Origin: a virus
Strand: one strand, 5' to 3'
IMG/VR virus record: IMGVR_UViG_3300044591_000287
Span: 1-42,438 of that record
DNA length: 42,438 nt
How positions within the stretch are numbered: position 1 is the first letter of the stretch; each line of letters opens with the position of its first letter. The translations under genes and the position numbers were made by a program. Positions 8,424 through 37,728 of the stretch are shown here, piece by piece. The notes under the pieces were generated by a model. That model ran no database searches and had not been told where the DNA came from. It worked only from the letters and a program-made list of their open reading frames with translations.

Positions 8424-11400
8424 TAGGTGATCTCCTTGCCGTAACCGACGGCGGTGTATTGGAAGTTGCGTGCGACTGGCTTGTCGCTGTTGTCCTGGAT
8501 CACAAGATCAACGCCAGTGCGCGATAACGTGTCCAGTGTATAGTAGTCGCCGCTATCTGCGTTGAAGATGGTGATCCCCATCGTAGGCGACTGGTAGAAG
8601 TTGTCAACGAAGTCGATCAGGAATGGCCCAGCAGCAGTGCCGGTCCCGGTACCCGGTCCAGTTGCGGTGAACTTGGTGCCAGGATTGTTGTTGGCCGCGC
8701 CGATTAACGTGAAGTTGGTCGTCCCTGCGCTCACAATGGTGTAGTCCCTGCCAGCCTGGATCTCGGCTGCTGCGTTCAGTGTGTCGTGCACGTCCGAGAT
8801 CTCGGCACGCTGCTGCATCTCGACTGTAACGCCGACATCAGTAATCAATATGTTCTGCGATGGGTCGATGGTTGTTGCGACCACCTTGAACTGGAATGCA
8901 CGACCGCGGACCGTTGCGTTGGCGAACTCGCGCCATTCGCCCCAGGTTGGCGACCCCGATGGATTGTCGGTCGTGCTGCGGACATACATCGACGCATTTG
9001 GGCCGTCAGGCGCAGCATCGTCAATCAGCCCCCAGTCGTCGATATAAAGCGTTTTGTCATCAATTAGGGCGCCGGCCGTCAGCGTGGTGAACTCAAGCGT
9101 CCGTCTGATGTTGATGTCATAAACATGGGTCAGGTCAAGCGTGTCACCCAGCTCGTAGGTGCCTGCCGGCAGGATGTCGCCGATGCTGTCAATCGAGCCA
9201 AGGTCGTCCCAGGTGCCCATGTCATCCACCAGCACCGTGCCCGCCAGCAAGATGCCTTCGGATTCGGCCGAGTAGAACATGCCGGTAAAGGTGCCATCAA
9301 ACGGCGGATGCGTGTAGGTCTGCACGATCAGCCGCGGCAGTGGCGTCGGCAGGTCAACGATGATTGCGGACGCCGTGCTGCTGCGGTTGCCGGTATCGTC
9401 CTCGAACTTGAGCAGATAGGTGCCCTCCAGCAATGGCACCTGCTTCTGGGTCTGGCTACCGGCCGCCGCGGCAACGATCTCCTGCGCGTTTTCCCAGGAT
9501 GCACCGGTCAGTACCGGTTGATGCCGGATCAGCACCTTGCCGTTCAGGATCACATCCAGCTCTTGGCTGCGGTTCCAACTGATGACGGCCGAGGCCTCGT
9601 CGATCGCAACCAGGCTGAGGCCGGTGGGCGACGCCGGGGGAGCCGTCTTGCCCAGGGCGGTGATGGTATTGGTGGCGGGCGATGACGAGCGAAGGTTGGT
9701 GGGGCTGACGCTGTAGACCTCGATCTGATAGACGCCTGGCGTGGTGTCGAGGATCTCGTAGTCAGGTCGCTGGACCGTCAGATCAGTCCAGTTGTTGTCC
9801 TCCAGTCGATACCTGAATCTGTAGGTGCCAATACCATCGACTGGGACCCAACTGATCACCAGCTTTGACTGGACGACGCCGTTGTTGTCGTAGAGCGCTT
9901 CGGTTGCCGTGAGCCCAGTTGGCGCCGGAGGAATGACGTTAAGGTTTGTGACATCACGCTCTTGCAGTGGTTGACTGCGCTCGATGTAGTCGTACTTGCT
10001 GCTGTTGTAGGCCATCGCAGTGATGCTGTACTGCGCTTGGTCTTGCTCGGTGATGCCGATCACGCGCCAGGTGGAGGCTTCGATGTCAGCGGTTTGATAG
10101 ATCCAAATGCTGTTTGGGTTAGGCGCTGCTGAATAGGCGCTGCTGACCGTGATCACACTGCCGACGATGGATGACACCGTTTTGGATTCAACCGCACCGG
10201 TTGGCAGGATCACCGACAGCGTCGGGCTAGTACCGAGCACCAAGCCAGTGGCACTGTCGACGGTGATTGCTGTTGTCGTTGCGGATGTGATCCGCCCACC
10301 GCGGCGCTCGGAGCTGCGGGTGGGATCGGAGACCTCGATCACCTGCCCCGGGCGCACCACCACACCGGCATCGATGGATGTCGTGAAGCTGATCACCTCG
10401 CCTTCGTAGCGGTTGGTGTAGAGCAACCACTCGCCAAGCCTCCGTGCTTGCTTCCGGCTGGTGCAGGCAAAGGCGCTCAGTTCTGTGGTGATCACGCCAA
10501 AGCGGTTGATCCCGTCGCGGTCCTCGACCACTTCCTTGGCGATGTCCCGCAGCTCCAGGTCCAGGTAGCTAACCACAGCTACCGTCGGCTTGGACTTGAG
10601 ACTGGCGCCTTCGTAACTGAAGCCTTCGGGGGTGACATTTGCCAGTGTGAATAGGTACGCCGGATCTTGCGGCTTGTCTTGATTGATTGTCAGTGCGCCC
10701 GCAGACCAATATGGCATCACTCGGAATACCGAGCACATGTCATTGATCAGCTTGTACGCTTCCTCTGCTGTTTGGATATTGACGTTGCAGGAGAATCTAG
10801 GCTCGCCGTCAACTTGCTCCGAGCAGTATTGCGATGCGGCGTAGAAAGCGAACTTGTCAAGCTGCGCAGCAGTGATGTGATCGCCAAATCCATAGCGAGT
10901 GCTGGTCAGCAGATCCCATAGAATCCAAGCTGGATCCGTGGTCCACTGAGCGGCTCCAAAGGTGCCGTCCCAGGCGCCAGAGTATGTGATGCTGCCATCG
11001 ACAGCGCTGATCGTGCCATTGCTAGGGATCAACACCTTGATGCCGCGCACCAGATAGCTGCGGGCCGGGATGTTGCTGAACTGCTCAGCGTCAACGCGAA
11101 TGCCGATGAGGCCGCTGTTGCCGTAGCGCAAATTGGCGCGGGTGATTTCGGTGTAGCTGGTCCACTGAAAGGCGTTGCTGACTTTCGCGCTTGTGGAGTC
11201 CGGCGTGATGCGTGAGACGCGGATGTTGACCGGGAATGCACCATCAAGCTCGATCTCGTAATCGCGCTGGTACTTGTCGGCAGATCGACCCTTGATGGTG
11301 CCATCAAGGCCGCTCACCTTGGTCTCGAATCCGCCACCGGCATATTGAATTTCAATCTTGAGTTCAAAGCTCTGGCCGACAATGTCGCCTTGGTTGTTGA

Positions 11401-14912: not shown

Positions 14913-17350
14913 TATGCGAGCAATCCTCCGGGACGTTTCTGCTTGACGATCTCTTGCTGCACTGCGACAGACACGATCCTGCCAAGCTGATTGGCCCGCT
15001 GGTCATCACCCTGCACGCTACTGCCGCTGGCGTCAACGTTGACGACCACACTAACGCCACCGCCAAAGCTGCCGGTTGGTGCGATGCCGCCGCTACGTCC
15101 TGGCATGAACAGCTCAGGACCACGCTCGCCGACCAGGTATGGCTGACCAGCGCGGACACTGCCGCCCATGGCACGGAAGCCAAGGCCAATCGTGCTGAAT
15201 GGCGTCGCCGTGAAGTCGCCAGACAACATTGAAGTGCCAAGGGCGCTGCCCTTTACGCCTGCATAAGATAAGCCGCCGCCGCCACCGCCGCCAAGTCCGC
15301 CTAAAAATCCGCCAATAGCATTAATTGCCTTTTGTATAACGAAGACCCGCAGCAGTTGGTTGGCGATGTCGATCAGCACGCCAGAAGCGATACGCCGCAG
15401 GCTGGTGCCAAAGTCCTCGCTGCCTTGAATCAGCGCATTAAACGAAGATGTCAATCCTTCACCAATGGTGGTGGCAAGGCTGTCAGCAACGGCCTTCTGC
15501 TGTTTTTGGCCTTCGGTCAGTTCAGCCTGCAGATTGATTTGATTTTCAAGCGCTGCAATTTGATTTCTAGCGCTTTCGTTCTGTAGCTCCGTTAGCTCGC
15601 GTTGGATTTCCCGTTGATTAGCGATCAGTGCTGTATTGCCTTCATAAATAATGGCTTCTTGGGCTCTGATGTCTTTTTCTTGCGCCAGTGCCTGCGCGTA
15701 GCGATATTGAATGTCCAGTTCTTTCTCTTGCCCTTTGAGGCGTACTGCAAGCTGCTTGTCGCCGATTGCCTCTGCGGCGGCAATTTTATCCTGCAGGCCA
15801 GATTTAATCTGTATCAGTTGCCCTTCTGCCAGTCGATCACGGATCACCTGCGCAACGCGTTTTTGCTCCTCAGCAGCAGCTTTTGCTGCGCGCTCGGCAT
15901 CACGGGCTCTTTTTCTTGCTTCTCTTTCTCTTTCTTTTTCTGCATCTGGATCATATGTCCCACCGCCTCCGACTCCGCCAACAGCATTGCGCAGTCTCTC
16001 CGGAATAGCAGGTCCTGCTGGTTGATTCTTTGCATCACGCTTGCGCTTTGCTGCTCCAAGTCCTGCGACACCTAACAGCAGCTCACTACTTCCTGCTGTA
16101 AAGATGCCGGCCATAATTCTAAAAGCTGCATTGCGACCAAGTTCATTGAATCTTCCAATTGATCGCAGCAATGGACCATCGAGCGATGCAATCGCGCTTC
16201 CTAGCCCTCCAAATGCACCAGCTAGTACCTCAATACCGACTCTAAAGTCGCGCATTACAGTAGCGGCTTCATTGAGTTTATCTATTGCTGTTTGCAGCGC
16301 TGCACCAATGACAGGTGCAAAAGTGGTTAGGACCTCATTGCTTAAGTTTTTGAAAGCACTATCTAATCCCTTAAGTTGGTTTTCTAGGCTTTCTTTCATT
16401 TTGTCAAAGTCGCTTTCTGTCTTACCTGCCGCATCCTGTAATCCTTTTAGGATCTCCTGATAGTCCTTGCCGGCTTTTGCATTGGCAGCAAAAACCCCTC
16501 TCATGCCTTCTTGTGATCCAATTAATCTGGCTGCGGCTTCTTTGTTGGTAGTTTGAGCTTTCGCTAACTCGGCCATCAAGCCAGTAAATCCTTTGCCCTG
16601 TACGCCGGCAAGATTCCATTGAATGCCAAGAAACTTTGCAGCATCTTTTGATTCTTTAGTCGGTTGCAGGATCTGCGTCAGTGCTGCACCTAATCCAGTG
16701 AAAGCAACTTCAGCGGTAGCGCCATTTTTCGTTGCCGCGGCAATAAACGCATTGACTTCATCTAGGCTGACACCAGCAAGTGCCGCAATAGATGCAACCC
16801 TGCCAAGTTGGCTGGTGTAATCAGACCACTCGACTTGTCCGTATTCGATTGCCTTGCTGATGCTGTCGGTAACTCTGATTGCTTGCTCACCACTGATGCC
16901 ATAAGCATTGAGGGTTTTTGTTAGCACTTCGGTGACTTGTGTCGTATCAGCAAGTCCACCAATGGCAGCTTTGGTTGCAGCTTCTACTAACTTTAAATTG
17001 CCTGCAGTATCGCTGAATCCAGCCGACAATGCTTGGTAACTTGCTGCTGCCAGCTCGGCTTTGCCTGCAACTCCACCAAGCCTAGTGCTTAAGTTTCCAA
17101 GCCCTTCATCCAATGCTTTAATATCTCCACCAGCAGTCCCAAGTCTTCTTATGTTTCTATCGAGTTCTTTGTAATCGTTGATTGCTTTGGTGATTGCAAA
17201 TCCACCAGCCAATCCACTGGCTAGCCCTGCCAAAGATTTCTGCAGCTGCCCGATTGATGTGTCAAGCTGCCCTGACGCCCGGTTGACATCACGCAGCGCA
17301 TTAACCGCCTGCCGCGAGTCAACCCTTAGCTCGACGTTTGAGACTGCCAT
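14912..17350 (-). CDS. Tape measure protein
   Basis: An 812-aa protein. The N-terminus has the helical tape-measure pattern (NVELRVDSRQAVNALRDVN). A TP901-like core spans roughly residues 60-330. A hydrophobic patch is near 380-430, and a charged coiled coil lies at about 470-510 (EKEREREARKRARDAERAAK). The C-terminus is Gly-rich (FLGGLGGGGGGGLSYAG). At about 0.15 nm per residue the length predicts a tail near 120 nm. It begins ten bases after the stop of the frameshifted GT frame, as in lambda. Confidence 0.93.
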   Translation of the reverse strand: MAVSNVELRVDSRQAVNALRDVNRASGQLDTSIGQLQKSLAGLASGLAGGFAITKAINDYKELDRNIRRLGTAGGDIKALDEGLGNLSTRLGGVAGKAELAAASYQALSAGFSDTAGNLKLVEAATKAAIGGLADTTQVTEVLTKTLNAYGISGEQAIRVTDSISKAIEYGQVEWSDYTSQLGRVASIAALAGVSLDEVNAFIAAATKNGATAEVAFTGLGAALTQILQPTKESKDAAKFLGIQWNLAGVQGKGFTGLMAELAKAQTTNKEAAARLIGSQEGMRGVFAANAKAGKDYQEILKGLQDAAGKTESDFDKMKESLENQLKGLDSAFKNLSNEVLTTFAPVIGAALQTAIDKLNEAATVMRDFRVGIEVLAGAFGGLGSAIASLDGPLLRSIGRFNELGRNAAFRIMAGIFTAGSSELLLGVAGLGAAKRKRDAKNQPAGPAIPERLRNAVGGVGGGGTYDPDAEKEREREARKRARDAERAAKAAAEEQKRVAQVIRDRLAEGQLIQIKSGLQDKIAAAEAIGDKQLAVRLKGQEKELDIQYRYAQALAQEKDIRAQEAIIYEGNTALIANQREIQRELTELQNESARNQIAALENQINLQAELTEGQKQQKAVADSLATTIGEGLTSSFNALIQGSEDFGTSLRRIASGVLIDIANQLLRVFVIQKAINAIGGFLGGLGGGGGGGLSYAGVKGSALGTSMLSGDFTATPFSTIGLGFRAMGGSVRAGQPYLVGERGPELFMPGRSGGIAPTGSFGGGVSVVVNVDASGSSVQGDDQRANQLGRIVSVAVQQEIVKQKRPGGLLA

Positions 17351-30627: not shown

Positions 30628-30885
30628 GTTCCCCACCTAAAAGCAAGGTGGGACGGGGTGGGGTACCGCAAAACCCAGTCCAGCACTGGCGGTTCCCCAC
30701 GTACCCTACCTAACCCCACCTATATCAAAGCAAATAAAGGAATAGAGAGACGCGTAGGGGAACGTAGGGAAGTCTCAGACCTAGGTGGGACGCGAGTCAG
30801 GTGAGGTACCTGCTCCAGATCCGTTGCAGCGCAGTGGATCTGAGCAATCCATAGGTGGGGTACCCGTCCTACCTAGGTGGGGTAC
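30628..30885. repeat. Cluster of TAGGTGGGGTAC repeats: candidate origin or operator
   Basis: About 250 noncoding bases hold at least ten copies of a 12-mer, TAGGTGGGGTAC. Exact copies lie at 30852 and 30874, spaced 22 bases (two helical turns). Near copies on plus are at 30645, 30655, 30782 and 30798. Inverted copies are at 30628, 30692, 30701 and 30711, the last three about ten bases apart. Between the inverted and direct groups is an A+T-rich stretch (30720-30748). Arrays of this kind are iterons of replication origins or operators. The flanking genes encode the primase-helicase and an RHH protein. I saw no other feature in this gap. Confidence 0.8.
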
Positions 30886-32924
30886 TAGCGGCGGTACACA
30901 TAGGCCCTGGTTGACCCTTTGCCGCTGCGGTACCGCTTGAACCCAAGCCGCTTGAGCACGTCCGCAACCTGCATCTGGTCCGCCTTGGTCTGCCGTTCTA
31001 CGGGCTTCTTGATGGCCTCAGTGAGCAACCTTTCAGTGGTCAAATCAATCTCGCCGTGTCTACGCAACCAGTCTTCAATCTCTGCCTGCCAAGGGTTATC
31101 AACGACGTATGATTCATTCTCTTCGGCAAGCTGCCGTTCATGCTCAGCAGGCAACCGACTGGTCTCACCTGCACGGTATGCAGCAACAGCGGCAGACCAT
31201 ATTGCATCGCGTTCTAGCAATAGCGTTGCGGTGTCAATCTGATCCGACTGCGTCTTGGTTGTAGGGATCACCCAGAAGCGGCGGTTACCAGTTTCGTCCA
31301 CCAAAAACCCAGTGGTGCGGTTAGTGGTGCCGACGATAATGCCGCGCCTTGGGAATGCCTCAGTGGCCTTTCCATATGGCACGCGGAACATATCAACTGC
31401 CTGCGATAGGAACGCCTTGACCTGCCCTGCGTGTTTGCGATTGGTTACATGGTCCAGCTCTGCCCACTCCATGATCCATGACCGATGCAGCACCATGAGA
31501 TCGTCTTTGGTGCTGATGTCACCAAGGGCATCACTGAAGAAGTCATGGCCGAGGCACGCCCAGAACGATGACTTGTAGGCACCCTGATCGCCCATGATCA
31601 CGCAGGCTGAGTCGTGCTTACAGCCAGGGTTGTAGGCACGGGCAACAGCACCGATCAACGTGCGCTTGAGCATCTCGTCGTAGATGGTGCCAGGCGTGTC
31701 GCCGGGTCGCAGGTATCCGGTTGACAGGGCCTCGATGTAGGCAGGTGCCACAGTGGCTGCGACGCGATCGAGGTATTCGACGACCGGGTCATAGGGCGAC
31801 TCGTTGGCTACCTGCACGATGCAGTCCAGGGCTACTTCTTTGGATACCTTGTATCCCATCTCAGCGAGCGTGAGATAAAAGCGCTCTGCGCCTTCGATGG
31901 GTGCGCCATCTACCTCGATCCGTTGGGTGAACGTGTTGTACCTGTAGCTGCTGTCACCATGGCGCAACAGGTTGAGCAGCTCTGCAGCATTCATCGGCTG
32001 GAGCTGCGGGTTTACTGCTGACGGCGGTTGCTTGCCTGCAGGGCGCTCTCGACGGACTGGCTCTTGCTGCTGCCGGCCACGCCAACCATCCTGCTTGGCT
32101 AGTTGGCCAAGGGTGCCGAGGGTGATGCCACCGCCGGACTTGAACCCGCGCCACTTGTGCTCGCAGTCACCTGGCTTAAATTTGGATGACTGCGACGACC
32201 AATTGATCCAATCCGCCAGCAGGGCATCATCGACGCTATGGAGCGCCATGCCGACCTCAAGCCACTGGTCATAGTCATCAGCGCGACTGGGCTGCAACAC
32301 CTCGAGGAACGACCGAGCGCGCGCCGTGTCATCAGTGCCGCCACTGACCAGCGGCAACGGCGCCTGTACCGGTTGCCGCAGCATCCGCGCTATCAGGTCT
32401 GCCGGTGCTTCGGCAATATCTACATCTGTTGGCGATCGCCCTGGCACCCAGCTATAGCCACTGGTTAGCGGGTGTGCGCCGGCAACGATGGACTGGCAGC
32501 CATCCCAGCGCAGTTCTACCTGCTCAGGCTTGCCTTCGGCATCGGTGACGCCAGTCTTGTATTTGCGGGTGCGGATGTCTGCCCAATAGTGCTCAGGCAC
32601 CTGGTAGATGATCTGAAACCGCCCGTCACGACCGGAGGTTACGGTCCATGACGGCGGCAACGAGCTGACCGGGATGCCCCAATCGTCAAACAACCGCGAT
32701 GCGGATTTGCCGTCATGGTCCACGAACAGCAATCCACCACTAGGCGTGCCGCAGCAAACGCCGATCGCCTTGGCACGACCGGACTGCAGTTCCTTGCCGA
32801 GCTGGATGCGGGTGATGAAATTCTTCTGCCAGTTGTCCATGTACGGACGCTTCTGGCCGTCAACTGCCACATAGGACCAATGGCGCGGCAGTGCTGCTAG
32901 CTGCCCGAGTAGGTCGCTGGTCAT
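30885..32924 (-). CDS. Primase-helicase (Prim-Pol plus VirE/D5-like ATPase)
   Basis: A 679-aa replication protein. Residues 10-180 are a bifunctional primase/polymerase domain: LLFVDHDG holds the metal-binding Asp69 and Asp71. Residues 195-285 are a small primase C-terminal helical domain (DQWLEVGMALHS). Residues 365-600 are a virulence-E-type SF3-like helicase with Walker A at 445-452 (GDQGAYKS), Walker B at 484-491 (IMEWAELD) and the sensor GTTNRTTGFLVDETGNRRFW. It should prime and unwind phage DNA. The stop codon abuts the repeat cluster that could be its origin. The start overlaps the RHH gene upstream by four bases. Confidence 0.92.
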   Translation of the reverse strand: MTSDLLGQLAALPRHWSYVAVDGQKRPYMDNWQKNFITRIQLGKELQSGRAKAIGVCCGTPSGGLLFVDHDGKSASRLFDDWGIPVSSLPPSWTVTSGRDGRFQIIYQVPEHYWADIRTRKYKTGVTDAEGKPEQVELRWDGCQSIVAGAHPLTSGYSWVPGRSPTDVDIAEAPADLIARMLRQPVQAPLPLVSGGTDDTARARSFLEVLQPSRADDYDQWLEVGMALHSVDDALLADWINWSSQSSKFKPGDCEHKWRGFKSGGGITLGTLGQLAKQDGWRGRQQQEPVRRERPAGKQPPSAVNPQLQPMNAAELLNLLRHGDSSYRYNTFTQRIEVDGAPIEGAERFYLTLAEMGYKVSKEVALDCIVQVANESPYDPVVEYLDRVAATVAPAYIEALSTGYLRPGDTPGTIYDEMLKRTLIGAVARAYNPGCKHDSACVIMGDQGAYKSSFWACLGHDFFSDALGDISTKDDLMVLHRSWIMEWAELDHVTNRKHAGQVKAFLSQAVDMFRVPYGKATEAFPRRGIIVGTTNRTTGFLVDETGNRRFWVIPTTKTQSDQIDTATLLLERDAIWSAAVAAYRAGETSRLPAEHERQLAEENESYVVDNPWQAEIEDWLRRHGEIDLTTERLLTEAIKKPVERQTKADQMQVADVLKRLGFKRYRSGKGSTRAYVYRR

Positions 32925-33094
32925 AGACCCCTCGGGCCGGTAGCTGGCAGCAGGCCTTGCTTGTCAAGGCGCATGGCCTGCTCGACCACAAGCCTGAGCA
33001 CAGCGCTACGAGACAGGCCGGCAACGCGGCGGGCGTCAAGCCATGCCATCTGCTCTGGCGTGAGCTGCACGGCAAGCGGGTGTGATAATGGCAC
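32921..33094 (-). CDS. Small ribbon-helix-helix-like regulator, GTG start
   Basis: A 57-aa protein. Starting at the GTG at 33094 it reads M-P-L-S-H-P, then LAVQLTPEQMAWLDARRV and GLSRSAVLRLVVEQAM: strand, helix, turn, helix, as in RHH proteins. Longer in-frame starts reach 33229 but run through the divergent promoter region and give low-quality protein. The stop overlaps the primase start as ATGA. It likely controls the divergent region upstream. Confidence 0.65.
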   Translation of the reverse strand: MPLSHPLAVQLTPEQMAWLDARRVAGLSRSAVLRLVVEQAMRLDKQGLLPATGPRGL

Positions 33095-33110
33095 GAGTCC
33101 TAGCGGATAC

Positions 33111-33139
33111 TTGCGCAGTCTACCGGGTTGCGCTAGGGT
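33111..33139 (+). promoter_or_regulatory. Possible rightward promoter in the divergent gap
   Basis: TTGCGC (33111-33116) and TAGGGT (33134-33139) are separated by 17 bases in the 69-base gap between the leftward RHH gene and the rightward accessory cluster. The boxes are imperfect, but the spacing is right and some promoter must lie in or near this gap. Confidence 0.35.
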
Positions 33140-33163
33140 TGCAGGGCCACTCCGGCACCACAG

Positions 33164-33337
33164 ATGAACCCTATCTATCGAATCACCTACCAACGCCCTT
33201 GGGGCCCTTGCGTTGTCAACACAACCCAATTTGCCAATGAAAACGATTTAAGAGCAAGATTCAATCAATCATACAAAAATTGTGAGATTCTAAAAATAGA
33301 AGACGTAACCTTAGAGTTTTTGCCCAAGGGAATATGA
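33164..33337 (+). CDS. 57-aa hypothetical protein at the head of the accessory cluster
   Basis: It reads MNPIYRITYQRPWGPCVVNT, then a helix (FANENDLRARFNQSYKN) and strands (CEILKIEDVTLEFL). The gene is A+T-rich, about 25 percent GC in its middle part, unlike the 58 percent of the neighbouring primase gene. Its stop overlaps the next start as ATGA, so it is coupled to the PAPS-reductase-like gene. No family is recognised. Confidence 0.65.
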   Translation: MNPIYRITYQRPWGPCVVNTTQFANENDLRARFNQSYKNCEILKIEDVTLEFLPKGI

Positions 33338-34650
33338 AAACCTATTTAGAAATAGACGTCTACCAAGCCGCCATTGAGCGCTTGGATTTTATTTTTGAGC
33401 ATTTCAGCCGCGTTTACGTCTCTTTTTCTGGCGGCAAGGACAGCGGCGTTCTCTTGAATCTTGTTTGCGATTATGTCAGAAATCGAAAACTGCCAATAAA
33501 GATTGGCGTCCAAATAATGGACAATGAAGCCAACTATACTCATAGCGAGGAGTTTATGCACCGCATTCTCCAAGCTAATCGCGACATCCTAGATATTTAT
33601 TGGTGCTGCCTGCCAATTACTTTGCCATGCACTGTTTCGTCATATGAAATCGACTGGCAGTGCTGGGGCGAACACGATCGACACCGCTGGATTCGCCCAA
33701 TGTCAAAACACGATTACATTGTAAACCTTGAAAATCACCCCTTTGGCGATTTGTTCGTTGAAAACATGGACTACGCTACTTTTTGGGACATGTTTGCAGA
33801 GTGGTATAGCCAGGGGCAGCCATGCGCCAACTTGATCGGCATTCGTACTGTTGAATCTCTTAATCGTTTTCGAGCTATTCTTAACCAGGACAAAGAGACC
33901 ATGCTAGGTCGGATGTGGACAAAGAAAAATACAGATCACACTTACAACTGTTATCCAATTTACGATTGGCGGACTGAAGACATTTGGACCGCCAACGCAA
34001 AGTTTGGATGGGATTACAACAAACTTTACGACGTGTTCTATATGGCCGGCATTCCTATTAAAAAAATGCGTGTTGCTTCGCCTTTTATGTCAGAGTCAAA
34101 ATCAAGCCTTGCAATGTATCGGGTGATTGACCCGCAAGTATGGGCTAGGTTATGCGCTAGGGTTGGCGGCGCTAATTTTATGGCTACTTATGGGAAACAA
34201 CTTGATTATAAATCTTTTAAGCTCCCAGCTGGTCATACCTGGAAATCATTTGTAAAGTTCTTGCTTGCTACGTTACCGGATCAGTCAAGCGCAAATTTTA
34301 AGCAGCGCTTCATTCAGTCAATCCGTTACTGGGGACGAGTGGGGCGCGGACTACCCGAGTTTATTATTGATGCCCTTGGTCGTATTGGCATTCGTTTCTA
34401 CATCAATGGCACCACACGGCACGGCGGCAACAATCTACGCCGTGTTGTAATCAAGGTGCCACCTGATCAACTTGATGATTTGCCATGCCATAACAGCATG
34501 GTCACTTCATGGAAACGCTTTGCTATCACGGTTTTAAAAAACGACCACACGTGCAAATACCTGGGACTGGCGCCAACCCAAGAACAACAGCGCCGCCAAA
34601 GGTCAATCCAACGCAAGTACAGCCAAGTCCTTAATCGCTCCATCAAATGA
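33334..34650 (+). CDS. PAPS-reductase-like / IbrA-like PP-loop protein
   Basis: A 438-aa protein. The PP-loop S-G-G-K-D-S at 32-37 binds ATP or PAPS. NEANYTHSEEF follows, and IGIRTVESLNRFRAI carries the conserved Arg and Glu of the family. Residues 150-320 contain NCYPIYDWRTEDIWTANAKF. The C-terminus holds SWKRFAITVLKNDHTCKYLG, typical of the IbrA group, not of assimilatory CysH. IbrA relatives occur in phages beside a ParB protein, as here. They are related to DndC, which works in DNA phosphorothioation. The gene is much A+T-richer than the phage backbone, so it is probably acquired. The true reaction is unknown. Confidence 0.88.
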   Translation: MKTYLEIDVYQAAIERLDFIFEHFSRVYVSFSGGKDSGVLLNLVCDYVRNRKLPIKIGVQIMDNEANYTHSEEFMHRILQANRDILDIYWCCLPITLPCTVSSYEIDWQCWGEHDRHRWIRPMSKHDYIVNLENHPFGDLFVENMDYATFWDMFAEWYSQGQPCANLIGIRTVESLNRFRAILNQDKETMLGRMWTKKNTDHTYNCYPIYDWRTEDIWTANAKFGWDYNKLYDVFYMAGIPIKKMRVASPFMSESKSSLAMYRVIDPQVWARLCARVGGANFMATYGKQLDYKSFKLPAGHTWKSFVKFLLATLPDQSSANFKQRFIQSIRYWGRVGRGLPEFIIDALGRIGIRFYINGTTRHGGNNLRRVVIKVPPDQLDDLPCHNSMVTSWKRFAITVLKNDHTCKYLGLAPTQEQQRRQRSIQRKYSQVLNRSIK

Positions 34651-35588
34651 AAATCCTAAACGTTTCTCAGCTCTCTTCTGATCGCATCGTTAACTGTCCC
34701 AAAGGTGGTTTTACCAGCCATCGCTTGTTAACAGAAGACGATGGCATGGGATACAGCATGACCAAGACCATTGTGCATCCCGGCAAACCACACCGTTGGC
34801 ACTATCAACACCACCTCGAAACTTGCTACTGCGTCAGCGGCAAAGGTCTGCTCATTAACGAAGCAACACAAGAGATTCACGTTATCGGGCCTGATGTGAC
34901 TTATGTGCTTGACAAGCATGATCCTCACATTTTTGAAGCTCTAGAACCGACCACGCTTATTTGCGTTTTTAACCCGCCACTTAAAGGCAATGAGCTACAT
35001 GACGAGAACGACTCTTACCCTTGGCGATCCCCGGTTTATTCCGTACGCAGTATTCCTATCGAGAAAGTTACCGCCAATGATTACAACCCCAACTCTGTGG
35101 CGCCGCCTGAAATGGCACTACTCGAAACATCCATCTGGGAAGATGGTTACACGCAACCTGTCGTTGTCGTGCATGATGCCGAGCGTGACCTTTATGTGGT
35201 CGTTGACGGTTTTCACCGTTATTTAACTCTAAGGAACAGTCAGCGCATCCGCGAACGCGAAGGCGGCCGGTTGCCTGTAGTAGTACTGCGCAAAGAATTG
35301 CATGACAGGATGGCATCAACCATCCGGCACAATCGCGCTCGTGGTTCGCACAACATTGAACTGATGAGCGTAATTGTTGCTGAGCTGATTGAGATGGGCA
35401 AAGGCGACGCATGGATTTGCAAGCACATTGGCATGAGCCCTGATGAACTTTTGCGCCTTAAGCAAGTTACAGGCTTGGCCTCGCTGTTTTTGGGTAAAGA
35501 TTTCAGCAAGGCGTGGGACGTGGAACAAATCGACAACTTGACGGAGGATCTAGAACATGAAGCTCAAGAGAATCTGGTTACCCATTGA
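34647..35588 (+). CDS. Fusion of an ectoine-synthase-like cupin with a ParB (IbrB-like) domain
   Basis: A 313-aa protein. Residues 1-125 look like EctC, a cupin enzyme: Glu58 (HHLETCYCVSG), Tyr86 (TYVLDKHD) and His94 (HDPH) match the metal ligands I remember for EctC at 57, 85 and 93. CVFNPPL and NELHDE match substrate-contact parts (Cys106, Phe108, Glu116, His118). Residues 130-285 are a ParB/Srx domain with VVVDGFHRYLTL, followed by a helix-turn-helix-like end (ICKHIGMSPDELLRLKQV). The start overlaps the PAPS-reductase stop as ATGA. EctA and EctB are absent, so the cupin may sense or modify another small molecule. I know of no described EctC-ParB fusion. Confidence 0.88.
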   Translation: MKILNVSQLSSDRIVNCPKGGFTSHRLLTEDDGMGYSMTKTIVHPGKPHRWHYQHHLETCYCVSGKGLLINEATQEIHVIGPDVTYVLDKHDPHIFEALEPTTLICVFNPPLKGNELHDENDSYPWRSPVYSVRSIPIEKVTANDYNPNSVAPPEMALLETSIWEDGYTQPVVVVHDAERDLYVVVDGFHRYLTLRNSQRIREREGGRLPVVVLRKELHDRMASTIRHNRARGSHNIELMSVIVAELIEMGKGDAWICKHIGMSPDELLRLKQVTGLASLFLGKDFSKAWDVEQIDNLTEDLEHEAQENLVTH

Positions 35589-35982
35589 TGCCTGGGAGGA
35601 GATCCACTGCAACATGTGGGGCGAGGTAGCTAATCGCCGCCTCTACCTGCAAAGGGCCGTTATCTTTACCGGCAATCACCGCCTCTACGGGCGCTATATG
35701 CAACGGGTCACGGTGGAGTGGCCCAACAGCTGCATCAACGCGCTGACTGACTACAACCTCAATCGCAAAGCATGGATCGGGCACGCAGCTTGCGCGCTGG
35801 CTCTTCGATGCCCTGAAGACATCACCAGACAAGCATGGGGACTTTTAACCGATGAGCAACGGACATTGGCGAACCGACAAGCGAATCGAGCCATTCGCGC
35901 CTGGGAGATGCGCTACCGCCAGAGTCTCGGAATACGTGCGGACGTGGAAAACCCGCTGTTATTCGCACGAGATTCCCGATGA
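35557..35982 (+). CDS. Conserved small protein of the IbrAB-type cluster
   Basis: A 141-aa protein. It has DAWEEIHCNMWGEV, VEWPNSCINALTDYNLNRKA, WIGHAACALALRCPEDITRQ and AWGLLTDEQRTLANRQANRA. It is helical and well structured. I recall similar proteins beside ParB-like genes in other phages, but no function is known. A good ribosome site (GGAGG at 35542-35546) precedes the ATG. It overlaps the cupin-ParB gene by 32 bases. Confidence 0.8.
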   Translation: MKLKRIWLPIDAWEEIHCNMWGEVANRRLYLQRAVIFTGNHRLYGRYMQRVTVEWPNSCINALTDYNLNRKAWIGHAACALALRCPEDITRQAWGLLTDEQRTLANRQANRAIRAWEMRYRQSLGIRADVENPLLFARDSR

Positions 35983-36184
35983 AGTGCCGGCCAAGGTTGC
36001 AGCCTCAGGCCGTGCTCCATCTTGGAAAGCTGTAGCACTTGCTTTGCTGCAAAATGACCTGCACCTTTATCAACTGGGTTATTCGCGTCCTGCATACGAG
36101 CGACAACGACGTGCCTTGACAATGGCGCAAATTGCTATTCATGGAACGCCAGCCGAAGGTACGCAACTGGAACTGCCACTATGA
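35852..36184 (+). CDS. Stand-alone copy of the IbrA C-terminal (DUF3440-like) module
   Basis: A 110-aa frame. The useful part is residues 28-85: VRTWKTRCYSHEIPDEVPA, then PSWKAVALALLQNDLHLYQL and GYSRPAYERQRRAL. The second half matches the last part of the PAPS-reductase-like protein (TSWKRFAITVLKND, then an L-G and a Gln-Arg-Arg run). DUF3440/IbrA proteins carry IPDE and SWK-ND motifs in one chain, as I remember. The start is uncertain: ATG at 35852 overlaps the previous gene by 131 bases, and GTG at 35936 also fits. The stop overlaps the helicase start as ATGA. Confidence 0.68.
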   Translation: MSNGHWRTDKRIEPFAPGRCATARVSEYVRTWKTRCYSHEIPDEVPAKVAASGRAPSWKAVALALLQNDLHLYQLGYSRPAYERQRRALTMAQIAIHGTPAEGTQLELPL

Positions 36185-37728
36185 ACCTCCGCCCTTACCA
36201 ACAACAACTCATCACTGACATCCGCTTGCAGTACCAGCTAGGGCACCGCACTGTGCTAGCGGTGCTGCCCACTGGTGGCGGCAAGACGGTGTGCTTCAGC
36301 TACATTGCCCAGTCTGCCGCCCGCAAAGGCAACCGGGTCTGCATCTTGGTGCACCGCGCCGAGCTGCTGGACCAGGCCAGCCGCAGTCTCACGGCTATGG
36401 GCGTGCCCCATGGCCGCATTGCAGCCGGCCGCAGCATGGACCTAAGCCATGCGGTGCAGGTTGCCTCGATCCAGACCGTGGCCCGCAGGCTTCACAAACT
36501 GCCGGCTGGGTTCTTCCAGCTCTTGGTGGTGGACGAGGCACACCACACCAATGCCGGGCAATGGGCAACGGTGCTGCAGCACTTCCAACAGGCGCATGTC
36601 CTAGGCGTGACCGCCACGCCATGCCGCGGTGATGGCCGCGGCTTAGGTGACCACTATCAGGCCATGGTGCTCGGCCCGAGCGCTGCATGGCTGACCGACA
36701 ACGGCTACCTCGCCAGTGCCCGTGTGTTGGCACCTCCGGGGTTTGACAGCACTGGGCTGCGCAAGCGCATGGGTGACTTCGACACCAAGGACGCCGAGCA
36801 GCGCGTCGGCACCATCATGGGCGACTGCTGCAGTCACTACCGTAAGCACCTAGCAGAGCAGACGGCGATTGCGTTCTGCTGCAGCGTGGCACATGCCGAG
36901 GCGGTGGCTGCCCTGTTCATGTCGCAAGGCATCCCTGCCGCCAGTATTGACGGCACCATGACCACTGACCAGCGCAGAGACCTACTGCAGGCACTCGGAA
37001 CCGGTCGCATCAAGGTGCTTACATCGTGCTCACTTATTGGTGAAGGCGTAGACGTGCCAAGCGTCGGGGGATGCATTCTGCTCAGGCCAACGCAGTCAGT
37101 CGGCCTGCACTTGCAGATGATCGGTCGTTGCCTGAGACCGTCACCGGGCAAGCCTGCTGCTGTGGTGCTGGACCACGTCGGCAACACGCTCAGACTGGGC
37201 CATCACCTCGAGGACCGCGACTGGAGCCTTGACGGCATCAAGAAGCGCGATGCCGACCGTGCGCCATCGGTCAAGGTGTGCCCGGTGTGCTTTGCCACCA
37301 GCATGAGCGCCACGCAGGTGTGCCCTGACTGCGGGCATGTGTTCGCGCCGCAGGAGACCAGGGAGCTAAAGGTGGTCGAGGGTGAGCTTATAGAGATGCA
37401 AACAGGCGGCATCAAGGTTGGCGACTATGTGACGGTTAGCGACCGTCGGATTGCATCTAGGTATCCAGGATCGTGGCGCATTCACGCGATTGATCACATT
37501 GTCGATTCCTACGCATTTATCACCAAAATCAAAACCGGCGATCCAGGTGGCGACGGGCATTGGTTAAAAATCTCAAGGTTGCGGCTTGATTCCAAGGCTG
37601 GCAAACGCGAGCAAGGCAGTGCACAGTCCTTGGAGGACCTCCGCCAACTGGCGCAGCAACGTGGCTACAAACGCGGCTGGGCAGAGCGGGTCTATCAGGC
37701 TAGGTTGGCTAAACGGCATGGGTTGTGA
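36181..37728 (+). CDS. SF2 DEAD/DEAH-box helicase with zinc ribbon
   Basis: A 515-aa helicase. Walker A TGGGKT is at 31-36, DEAH at 118-121, motif III TAT at 144-146 and motif VI QMIGRCLR at 312-319. Residues 367-384 form a C-P-V-C ... C-P-D-C zinc ribbon. The C-terminal 130 residues have a small barrel-like part (IKVGDYVTVSDRR). It belongs to the restriction-subunit-like phage helicases that unwind or translocate DNA. Together with the following nuclease it is a likely replication or recombination pair. Confidence 0.92.
   Translation: MNLRPYQQQLITDIRLQYQLGHRTVLAVLPTGGGKTVCFSYIAQSAARKGNRVCILVHRAELLDQASRSLTAMGVPHGRIAAGRSMDLSHAVQVASIQTVARRLHKLPAGFFQLLVVDEAHHTNAGQWATVLQHFQQAHVLGVTATPCRGDGRGLGDHYQAMVLGPSAAWLTDNGYLASARVLAPPGFDSTGLRKRMGDFDTKDAEQRVGTIMGDCCSHYRKHLAEQTAIAFCCSVAHAEAVAALFMSQGIPAASIDGTMTTDQRRDLLQALGTGRIKVLTSCSLIGEGVDVPSVGGCILLRPTQSVGLHLQMIGRCLRPSPGKPAAVVLDHVGNTLRLGHHLEDRDWSLDGIKKRDADRAPSVKVCPVCFATSMSATQVCPDCGHVFAPQETRELKVVEGELIEMQTGGIKVGDYVTVSDRRIASRYPGSWRIHAIDHIVDSYAFITKIKTGDPGGDGHWLKISRLRLDSKAGKREQGSAQSLEDLRQLAQQRGYKRGWAERVYQARLAKRHGL

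Follow-up and report, generated by a model that had tools for sequence, protein, structure and literature searches.

A phage IbrA/EctC::ParB gene cassette that trades places with DNA methylase genes is a candidate DNA-modification module

The analysed DNA is the whole of a 42,438-bp virus record (IMG/VR IMGVR_UViG_3300044591_000287, positions 1 to 42,438; hereafter the window), and its positions 33164-36184 hold an island of overlapping open reading frames (ORFs). These encode an IbrA-like protein, a fusion of an ectoine-synthase-type cupin to a ParB-type domain (EctC::ParB), and small proteins of 141 and 110 residues (g141 and g110), preceded by a 57-residue ORF (g57). Because the cassette repeatedly trades places with N6/N4 DNA methylase genes in related phages, we read the island as, on balance, a mobile phage DNA-modification module for restriction evasion whose product, judged from sequence, would be non-methyl and probably non-sulfur. 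A DNA-modification or anti-defence role had been among the options of the original prediction, made from the DNA letters of the window; it now has genomic evidence behind it in the replacement of methylases, the replacement of dpdA/preQ0 genes and an AcrIIA5 neighbour.

In the window the island occupies a slot between a primase-polymerase/VapE gene and a superfamily 2 (SF2) helicase gene. In Synechococcus phages S-LBS1 and S-H1 the corresponding place, bounded by the divergent primase and the homologue of the helicase, is taken up by an SF2 helicase and a DNA methylase; in S-H1 this place immediately precedes that homologue. We cut this slot out of all fetched contigs and obtained 59 distinct slots, with the cassette in 16, an IbrB::g141 plus IbrA pair in 2 and a helicase plus N6/N4 methylase in about 17. 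Further contents were an MT-A70-like gene (1 slot) and, in several, RuvC/DEDD-like or HNH genes, and a few slots were nearly empty (211-229 bp). IbrA and a methylase stood together in 0/59 slots. One of the slot proteins, ~350 residues long and resembling a RuvC/DEDD nuclease at its start (GCDYGSGYFHLH...VVIENAHMQPKARSLAQVF), recurs in L301, L317, L336, L339, L344 and L414.

Counted per whole record, N6/N4 methylases (PF01555) occurred in 0/24 records with IbrA versus 17/25 without it (Fisher p 2e-7), a comparison that supports the exchange less firmly for having a cassette-free set made up of helicase/primase relatives and a cassette set drawn partly from other backbones. Restricted to the same backbone, the counts were 0/7 versus 17/25 (p 0.002). 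Along supported branches of the helicase tree the presence of IbrA switches at least 5 times; of the independent pairs, about 4 of 5 have the methylase running opposite to IbrA and none has it running alongside. Among isolated IbrA phages, 1/16 carries an N6/N4 methylase, a figure that has no matched control and was not used as a test. Several further points weigh against a DNA-modification reading. The tree-corrected test has few independent pairs and is not significant (p 0.125), and with HNH and RuvC/DEDD-like genes among its contents the slot does not serve modification alone. C5 methylases occur in 3/24 cassette records versus 0/25 cassette-free ones, and the exclusion therefore holds for N6/N4 enzymes only. 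Moreover, E. coli K-12 carries ybdN/ybdM, and we know of no exotic base reported for that strain; activation of prophage eib genes, attributed to Sandt 2002, is reportedly the only phenotype described for the IbrAB family. Separately, at least one of the counted N6/N4 methylases is located outside the slot: in a cassette-free relative, a 402-residue enzyme whose sequence reads as having a ParB-like N-terminal region lies beside the terminase (L381:12775-13983).

A second replacement is found in cluster-B mycobacteriophages, which carry IbrAB where relatives carry dpdA and preQ0 genes. The CRB2 genome starts with ParB-DpdA-QueC-QueD-QueE-FolE-terminase and that of Phlyer with ParB-gp2-gp3-IbrA-IbrB-terminase, the Phlyer ParB being 48% identical to that of CRB2; experiments tie the CRB2-type pathway to dPreQ0 in ~28% of G in the related phage Rosebush, which has the same pathway (PMC6884629). 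ParB-type proteins accompany DNA modification in other systems, as DpdB does in Dpd (PMC12839542, PMC6392294) and as another does beside CmoX/CmoY DNA hypermodification in Synechococcus phage S-B43 (PMC12783734). Distant IbrA genes have a second ParB and a methyltransferase as neighbours or, in another context, a methyltransferase, an acetyltransferase and two glycosyltransferases. Streptococcus phage D4276 carries AcrIIA5 followed in turn by a small ORF, an SNF2 helicase gene, IbrA and IbrB. This proximity to AcrIIA5, and the action of EctC on small molecules (PMC6344544), would suit enzymes with a signal nucleotide or cofactor of the host as substrate, in some other anti-defence or nucleotide-pool role; since the DNA-binding-like ParB/helix-turn-helix domain and the exchange with DNA methylases indicate DNA as the target, we regard such a role as improbable. 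SF2/SNF2 helicases also recur adjoining IbrA or the alternative methylase in unrelated phages (L258, L259, L260, L261 and L274), and may be working partners of these genes.

The order IbrA, EctC::ParB, g141, g110 is kept almost throughout 80 related viral loci, down to 65-70% identity, and the complete cassette is present in the isolated phages Gaia and Nebkiss (M. smegmatis mc2 155) and XCL1123 (Pseudoalteromonas). Co-occurrence across phages, the check attached to the original prediction, is thus conserved in nearly all of these loci and in cultured phages; a composition artefact or spurious ORFs are ruled out by the same conservation. Mycobacterium phage Gaia (gp103-107) carries all four genes in this order, interrupted ahead of g141 by a GIY-YIG-like ORF, and one of its genes is already annotated as an 'ectoine synthase/ParB multidomain protein'. 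Pseudoalteromonas phage XCL1123 likewise keeps genes and order, its EctC and ParB being encoded by two ORFs. A cupin-less arrangement, ParB-g141-IbrA, is found in Pseudomonas phage Amjad_SA and Microcystis phage Mwe-JY13. EctC-type IbrA proteins form their own clade (support 100/100) and the type with g141 and no cupin groups with E. coli YbdN; g141 is accordingly found in two separate IbrA clades, as both types carry it. Of the five-gene unit first proposed, the four core genes hold together, whereas g57 is accessory and present in only some relatives: it never accompanies methylase slot contents, and other backbones carry the cassette without it. The unit comprises four genes, with this ORF as an optional extra. 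L408 and L426, whose slot holds another IbrAB type, have g57 upstream of it as well (62% identity in L408).

IbrA matches PAPS_reduct (3'-phosphoadenosine 5'-phosphosulfate reductase; PF01507, E 9.5e-9) and DUF3440 (PF11922, E 4.3e-53), both over the cut-off, and phrog_2302 (E 2e-108). With an IbrB-type ParB protein beside it, the earlier IbrAB-like label is sound, as is 'PAPS-reductase-like' for this 438-residue protein; DUF3440 proper is its C-terminal half and not, as had been proposed, the 110-residue protein. Window IbrA is 31% identical to E. coli YbdN in alignment, and 215 phage records match it. Within the PP-loop, S32, G34, K35, D36 and S37 are conserved in 51/51 IbrA sequences and G33 in 49/51, and D63, E65, W111, G169, R171, E174, R178, P208, D211 and D216 are invariant in the same set. 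The ratio of nonsynonymous to synonymous substitution rates (dN/dS) for IbrA is 0.009-0.035 against more distant phages, versus 0.11-0.40 in most flanking-gene comparisons. Even where helicase and primase identity to the window falls to 41-57%, IbrA and EctC::ParB are 92-96% identical, with dN/dS of ~0.017-0.05 versus 0.19-0.40 for helicase and primase. Synonymous sites of IbrA and EctC::ParB are highly diverged between those backbones, and this high protein identity despite diverged synonymous sites indicates strong purifying selection, not just recent transfer. An IbrA with one in-frame TGA is present in records of L079 and L159 and could reflect decay, sequencing error or recoding.

Known sulfur-inserting PP-loop enzymes rely on conserved cysteines. 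Across the 51 IbrA sequences no cysteine is invariant, the best being C92 (44/51) and C407 (39/51), which makes sulfur transfer unlikely. The original prediction had likened the island to Dnd phosphorothioation, with IbrA as DndC analogue and the ParB domain as DndB analogue in a Dnd/Ssp-like sulfur modification of DNA or nucleotide. The PAPS-reductase fold, weak DndC matches and the DG-x-HR motif of the ParB domain fit that parallel, which other results do not support: profile scans of the island ORFs found no DndD, DndE or desulfurase (DndA) partner, PADLOC returned nothing for DndB and no more than a weak partial match for DndC (1.4e-6), and the nearest solved structures by profile are CysD and flavin adenine dinucleotide (FAD) synthase, both adenylyltransferases, followed by PAPS reductases. 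The cysteine-conservation test rules out phosphorothioation as the leading idea, and we consider a sulfur modification very improbable.

The cupin-ParB label of the second protein stands, with the cupin more exactly of EctC type (PF06339, E 2.9e-37; whole fusion, phrog_2159, E 7e-77). Its ParB part aligns with IbrB-type motifs NPN, DG[FY]HR and IRxNRAxGxH (DGFHR being residues 187-191), has a profile closest to Noc, ParB/Spo0J and free serine kinase, and continues into a helix-turn-helix-like C-terminal part; no ParA partner was found among the neighbouring ORFs scanned. Aligned phage cupins keep the Fe ligands Glu57/Tyr84/His92 (P. lautus numbering) and several EctC substrate residues. Trp21, conserved in true and orphan EctC proteins (PMC6344544), is Phe or missing at the corresponding position. 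From these residues the domain is probably an iron cupin performing related chemistry on another substrate. Neither ectA nor ectB is among the island genes, the part of the record searched for them, and together with the loss of Trp21 this led us to reject ectoine synthesis. Annotations such as 'PAPS reductase' and 'ectoine synthase' invite a broader reading as auxiliary metabolism, in which the genes would serve the host in cysteine/sulfate assimilation or in making ectoine; given that a catalytic Cys is nowhere invariant, that the island lacks EctA/EctB and that Trp21 is lost (PMC6344544), it is the least probable of the readings considered.

The third protein, g141, gave a confident all-helical AlphaFold2 model (mean predicted local distance difference test score, pLDDT, 90.9) with no PDB match at E<=0.001; it had one confident viral match, unnamed and 61% identical. 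Pfam returned chance-level matches only and profile scans no known family. It is fused to the IbrB C-terminus in L408 and L426, and was not found in Streptococcus, Lactobacillus, Fusobacterium and other IbrAB phages. The fourth, g110, is a stand-alone relative of the DUF3440 C-terminal part (BLASTP E 1e-9 to Amjad_SA IbrA; hhalign probability 96.4%), with a predicted model (pLDDT 70) too weak for a fold search. Across 78 distinct loci its start falls within g141, the start codon being ATG in 77/78 and the overlap 77-206 nucleotides. The Gaia gp107 annotation begins at 8946, too late to include the start of its g110 homologue, which lies inside gp106 (L256:8856-9134).

The main rival to DNA modification is transcription co-activation, in which the helix-turn-helix region of IbrB/ParB would bind promoters with the assistance of IbrA, as has been proposed for IbrAB and the eib genes in E. 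coli ECOR-9. The family annotation 'co-activator of prophage gene expression', the ParB domain with its helix-turn-helix-like region and the prediction of E. coli ybdM as a transcription factor (PMC9068703) speak for such a switch, a role the original prediction had also raised. It leaves unexplained an ATP-pyrophosphatase site kept at dN/dS ~0.02, an iron-cupin enzyme, and replacement by methylases and by the dpdA/preQ0 operon, and we judge it rather unlikely. A modification could itself alter transcription, so the two readings are not exclusive.

Genomic exchange is an observation; the enzymatic steps that follow are ones we infer. The cassette would do the job of the DNA methylase in sister phages. 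IbrA would spend ATP on adenylating a group carried by DNA or by a nucleotide precursor, while IbrB/ParB, with g141, would bind nucleotide and DNA and present the site. The EctC-type iron cupin may make or tailor the attached group, for example by cyclodehydration, and g110 may contribute a further subunit of the DUF3440 C-terminal kind. DNA modified in this way, with a non-methyl and probably non-sulfur group, would resist host nucleases. More tentatively, and as a possibility we hold well short of a preferred conclusion, IbrA, a ParB/sulfiredoxin (Srx) factor with g141 and an EctC-type cupin may define a new class of DNA hypermodification with a non-methyl, non-sulfur, possibly cyclised group. 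Sequenced phages with IbrA/IbrB homologues number >200, and E. coli K-12 has such genes too (ybdN/ybdM); the exchange with methylases and the dpdA/preQ0 operon gives these homologues a concrete, testable function. If DNA modification is correct, a new enzyme combination, iron cupin included, is added to phage DNA chemistry; if hypermodification is correct, the 200-odd phage IbrA homologues are mostly DNA modifiers and not gene co-activators.

Portal and head proteins of the window are 71-78% identical to those of Synechococcus phages KBS-S-2A and S-H1, and its helicase is 65-67% identical to those of S-LBS1 and S-H1; by these identities the virus is a siphovirus-like cyanophage. It encodes an RNA polymerase sigma factor (1926-2822; phrog_351, E 2.5e-62), as do S-LBS1 and KBS-S-2A. 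All five predicted island ORFs are present (Table 1), successively overlapping by 4, 4, 32 and 131 nucleotides. The helicase overlaps g110 by 4 nucleotides and nonetheless belongs to the backbone, not the island. The foreign base composition noted earlier, with A+T-richer first genes, is borne out: GC content and GC content at third codon positions (GC3) are 0.39/0.41 in g57, 0.45/0.49 in IbrA, 0.49/0.52 in EctC::ParB, 0.56/0.66 in g141 and 0.55/0.48 in g110, versus 0.56-0.64/0.68-0.79 in most backbone genes. Low values also mark the 812-residue tape-measure-like gene (0.51/0.45), which contains a low-GC stretch at 15501-17350 (GC3 0.45) with strong AT skew (-0.42 at 15501-16000).

Table 1. 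Positions of island features and slot-border genes in the window.
Feature	Position	Strand	Basis or remark
g57, accessory 57-residue ORF	33164..33337	+	in part of relatives only
IbrA-like protein, 438 residues	33334..34650	+	N-type ATP pyrophosphatase, PAPS_reduct (27-235) + DUF3440 (239-420); Pfam, phrog_2302
PP-loop motif FSGGKDS, IbrA residues 31-37	33424..33444	+	conservation in 51 sequences
EctC::ParB fusion, 313 residues	34647..35588	+	PF06339, ParB_N, phrog_2159, motif alignments
EctC-type cupin domain, residues 11-126 of fusion	34647..35024	+	alignment, Fe ligands kept and Phe in place of Trp21; residue roles from PMC6344544
IbrB-type ParB N-terminal (ParB/sulfiredoxin-fold) domain	35043..35240	+	Pfam and profile matches
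g141, 141 residues, all-alpha	35557..35982	+	AlphaFold2 model, alignment, fusion ORF in L408/L426
g110, 110 residues, DUF3440 C-terminal relative	35852..36184	+	BLASTP, hhalign; 131-nucleotide overlap with g141
SF2 (DEAD/ResIII) helicase, backbone gene at slot border	36181..37728	+	domain and phrog matches, slot comparison
Primase-polymerase/VapE gene, other slot border	30885..32924	-	domain match, slot comparison
g102, small protein beside primase	32921..33229	-	accompanies most slot contents; true start probably shorter

IbrA/IbrB pairs are already known, and domain annotations exist for the Gaia genes; for the four-gene module our literature search found no description. Dnd/Ssp phosphorothioation likewise joins a PP-loop/PAPS-reductase-like enzyme to a ParB/Srx-fold protein, whereas the island lacks an invariant Cys in IbrA and lacks DndD/E/A. 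Dpd (DpdA, ParB-like DpdB, QueCDE and FolE) shares the matching slot in cluster-B mycobacteriophages, a ParB partner and ATP dependence, yet in the island we found neither DpdA nor any preQ0 gene. CmoX/CmoY of S-B43 is likewise from a cyanophage and has an adenylating enzyme with a ParBc protein nearby (PMC12783734); the island contains no CmoA/CmoX methyltransferase, and IbrA, as a PP-loop enzyme, is of another family. The IbrA/IbrB pairs of E. coli ECOR-9 (IbrAB), K-12 (YbdN/YbdM) and phages have the same two protein families adjacent. In contrast to those pairs, IbrB here carries a fused EctC cupin and has g141 and g110 downstream, and the EctC-type IbrA stands as a clade of its own.

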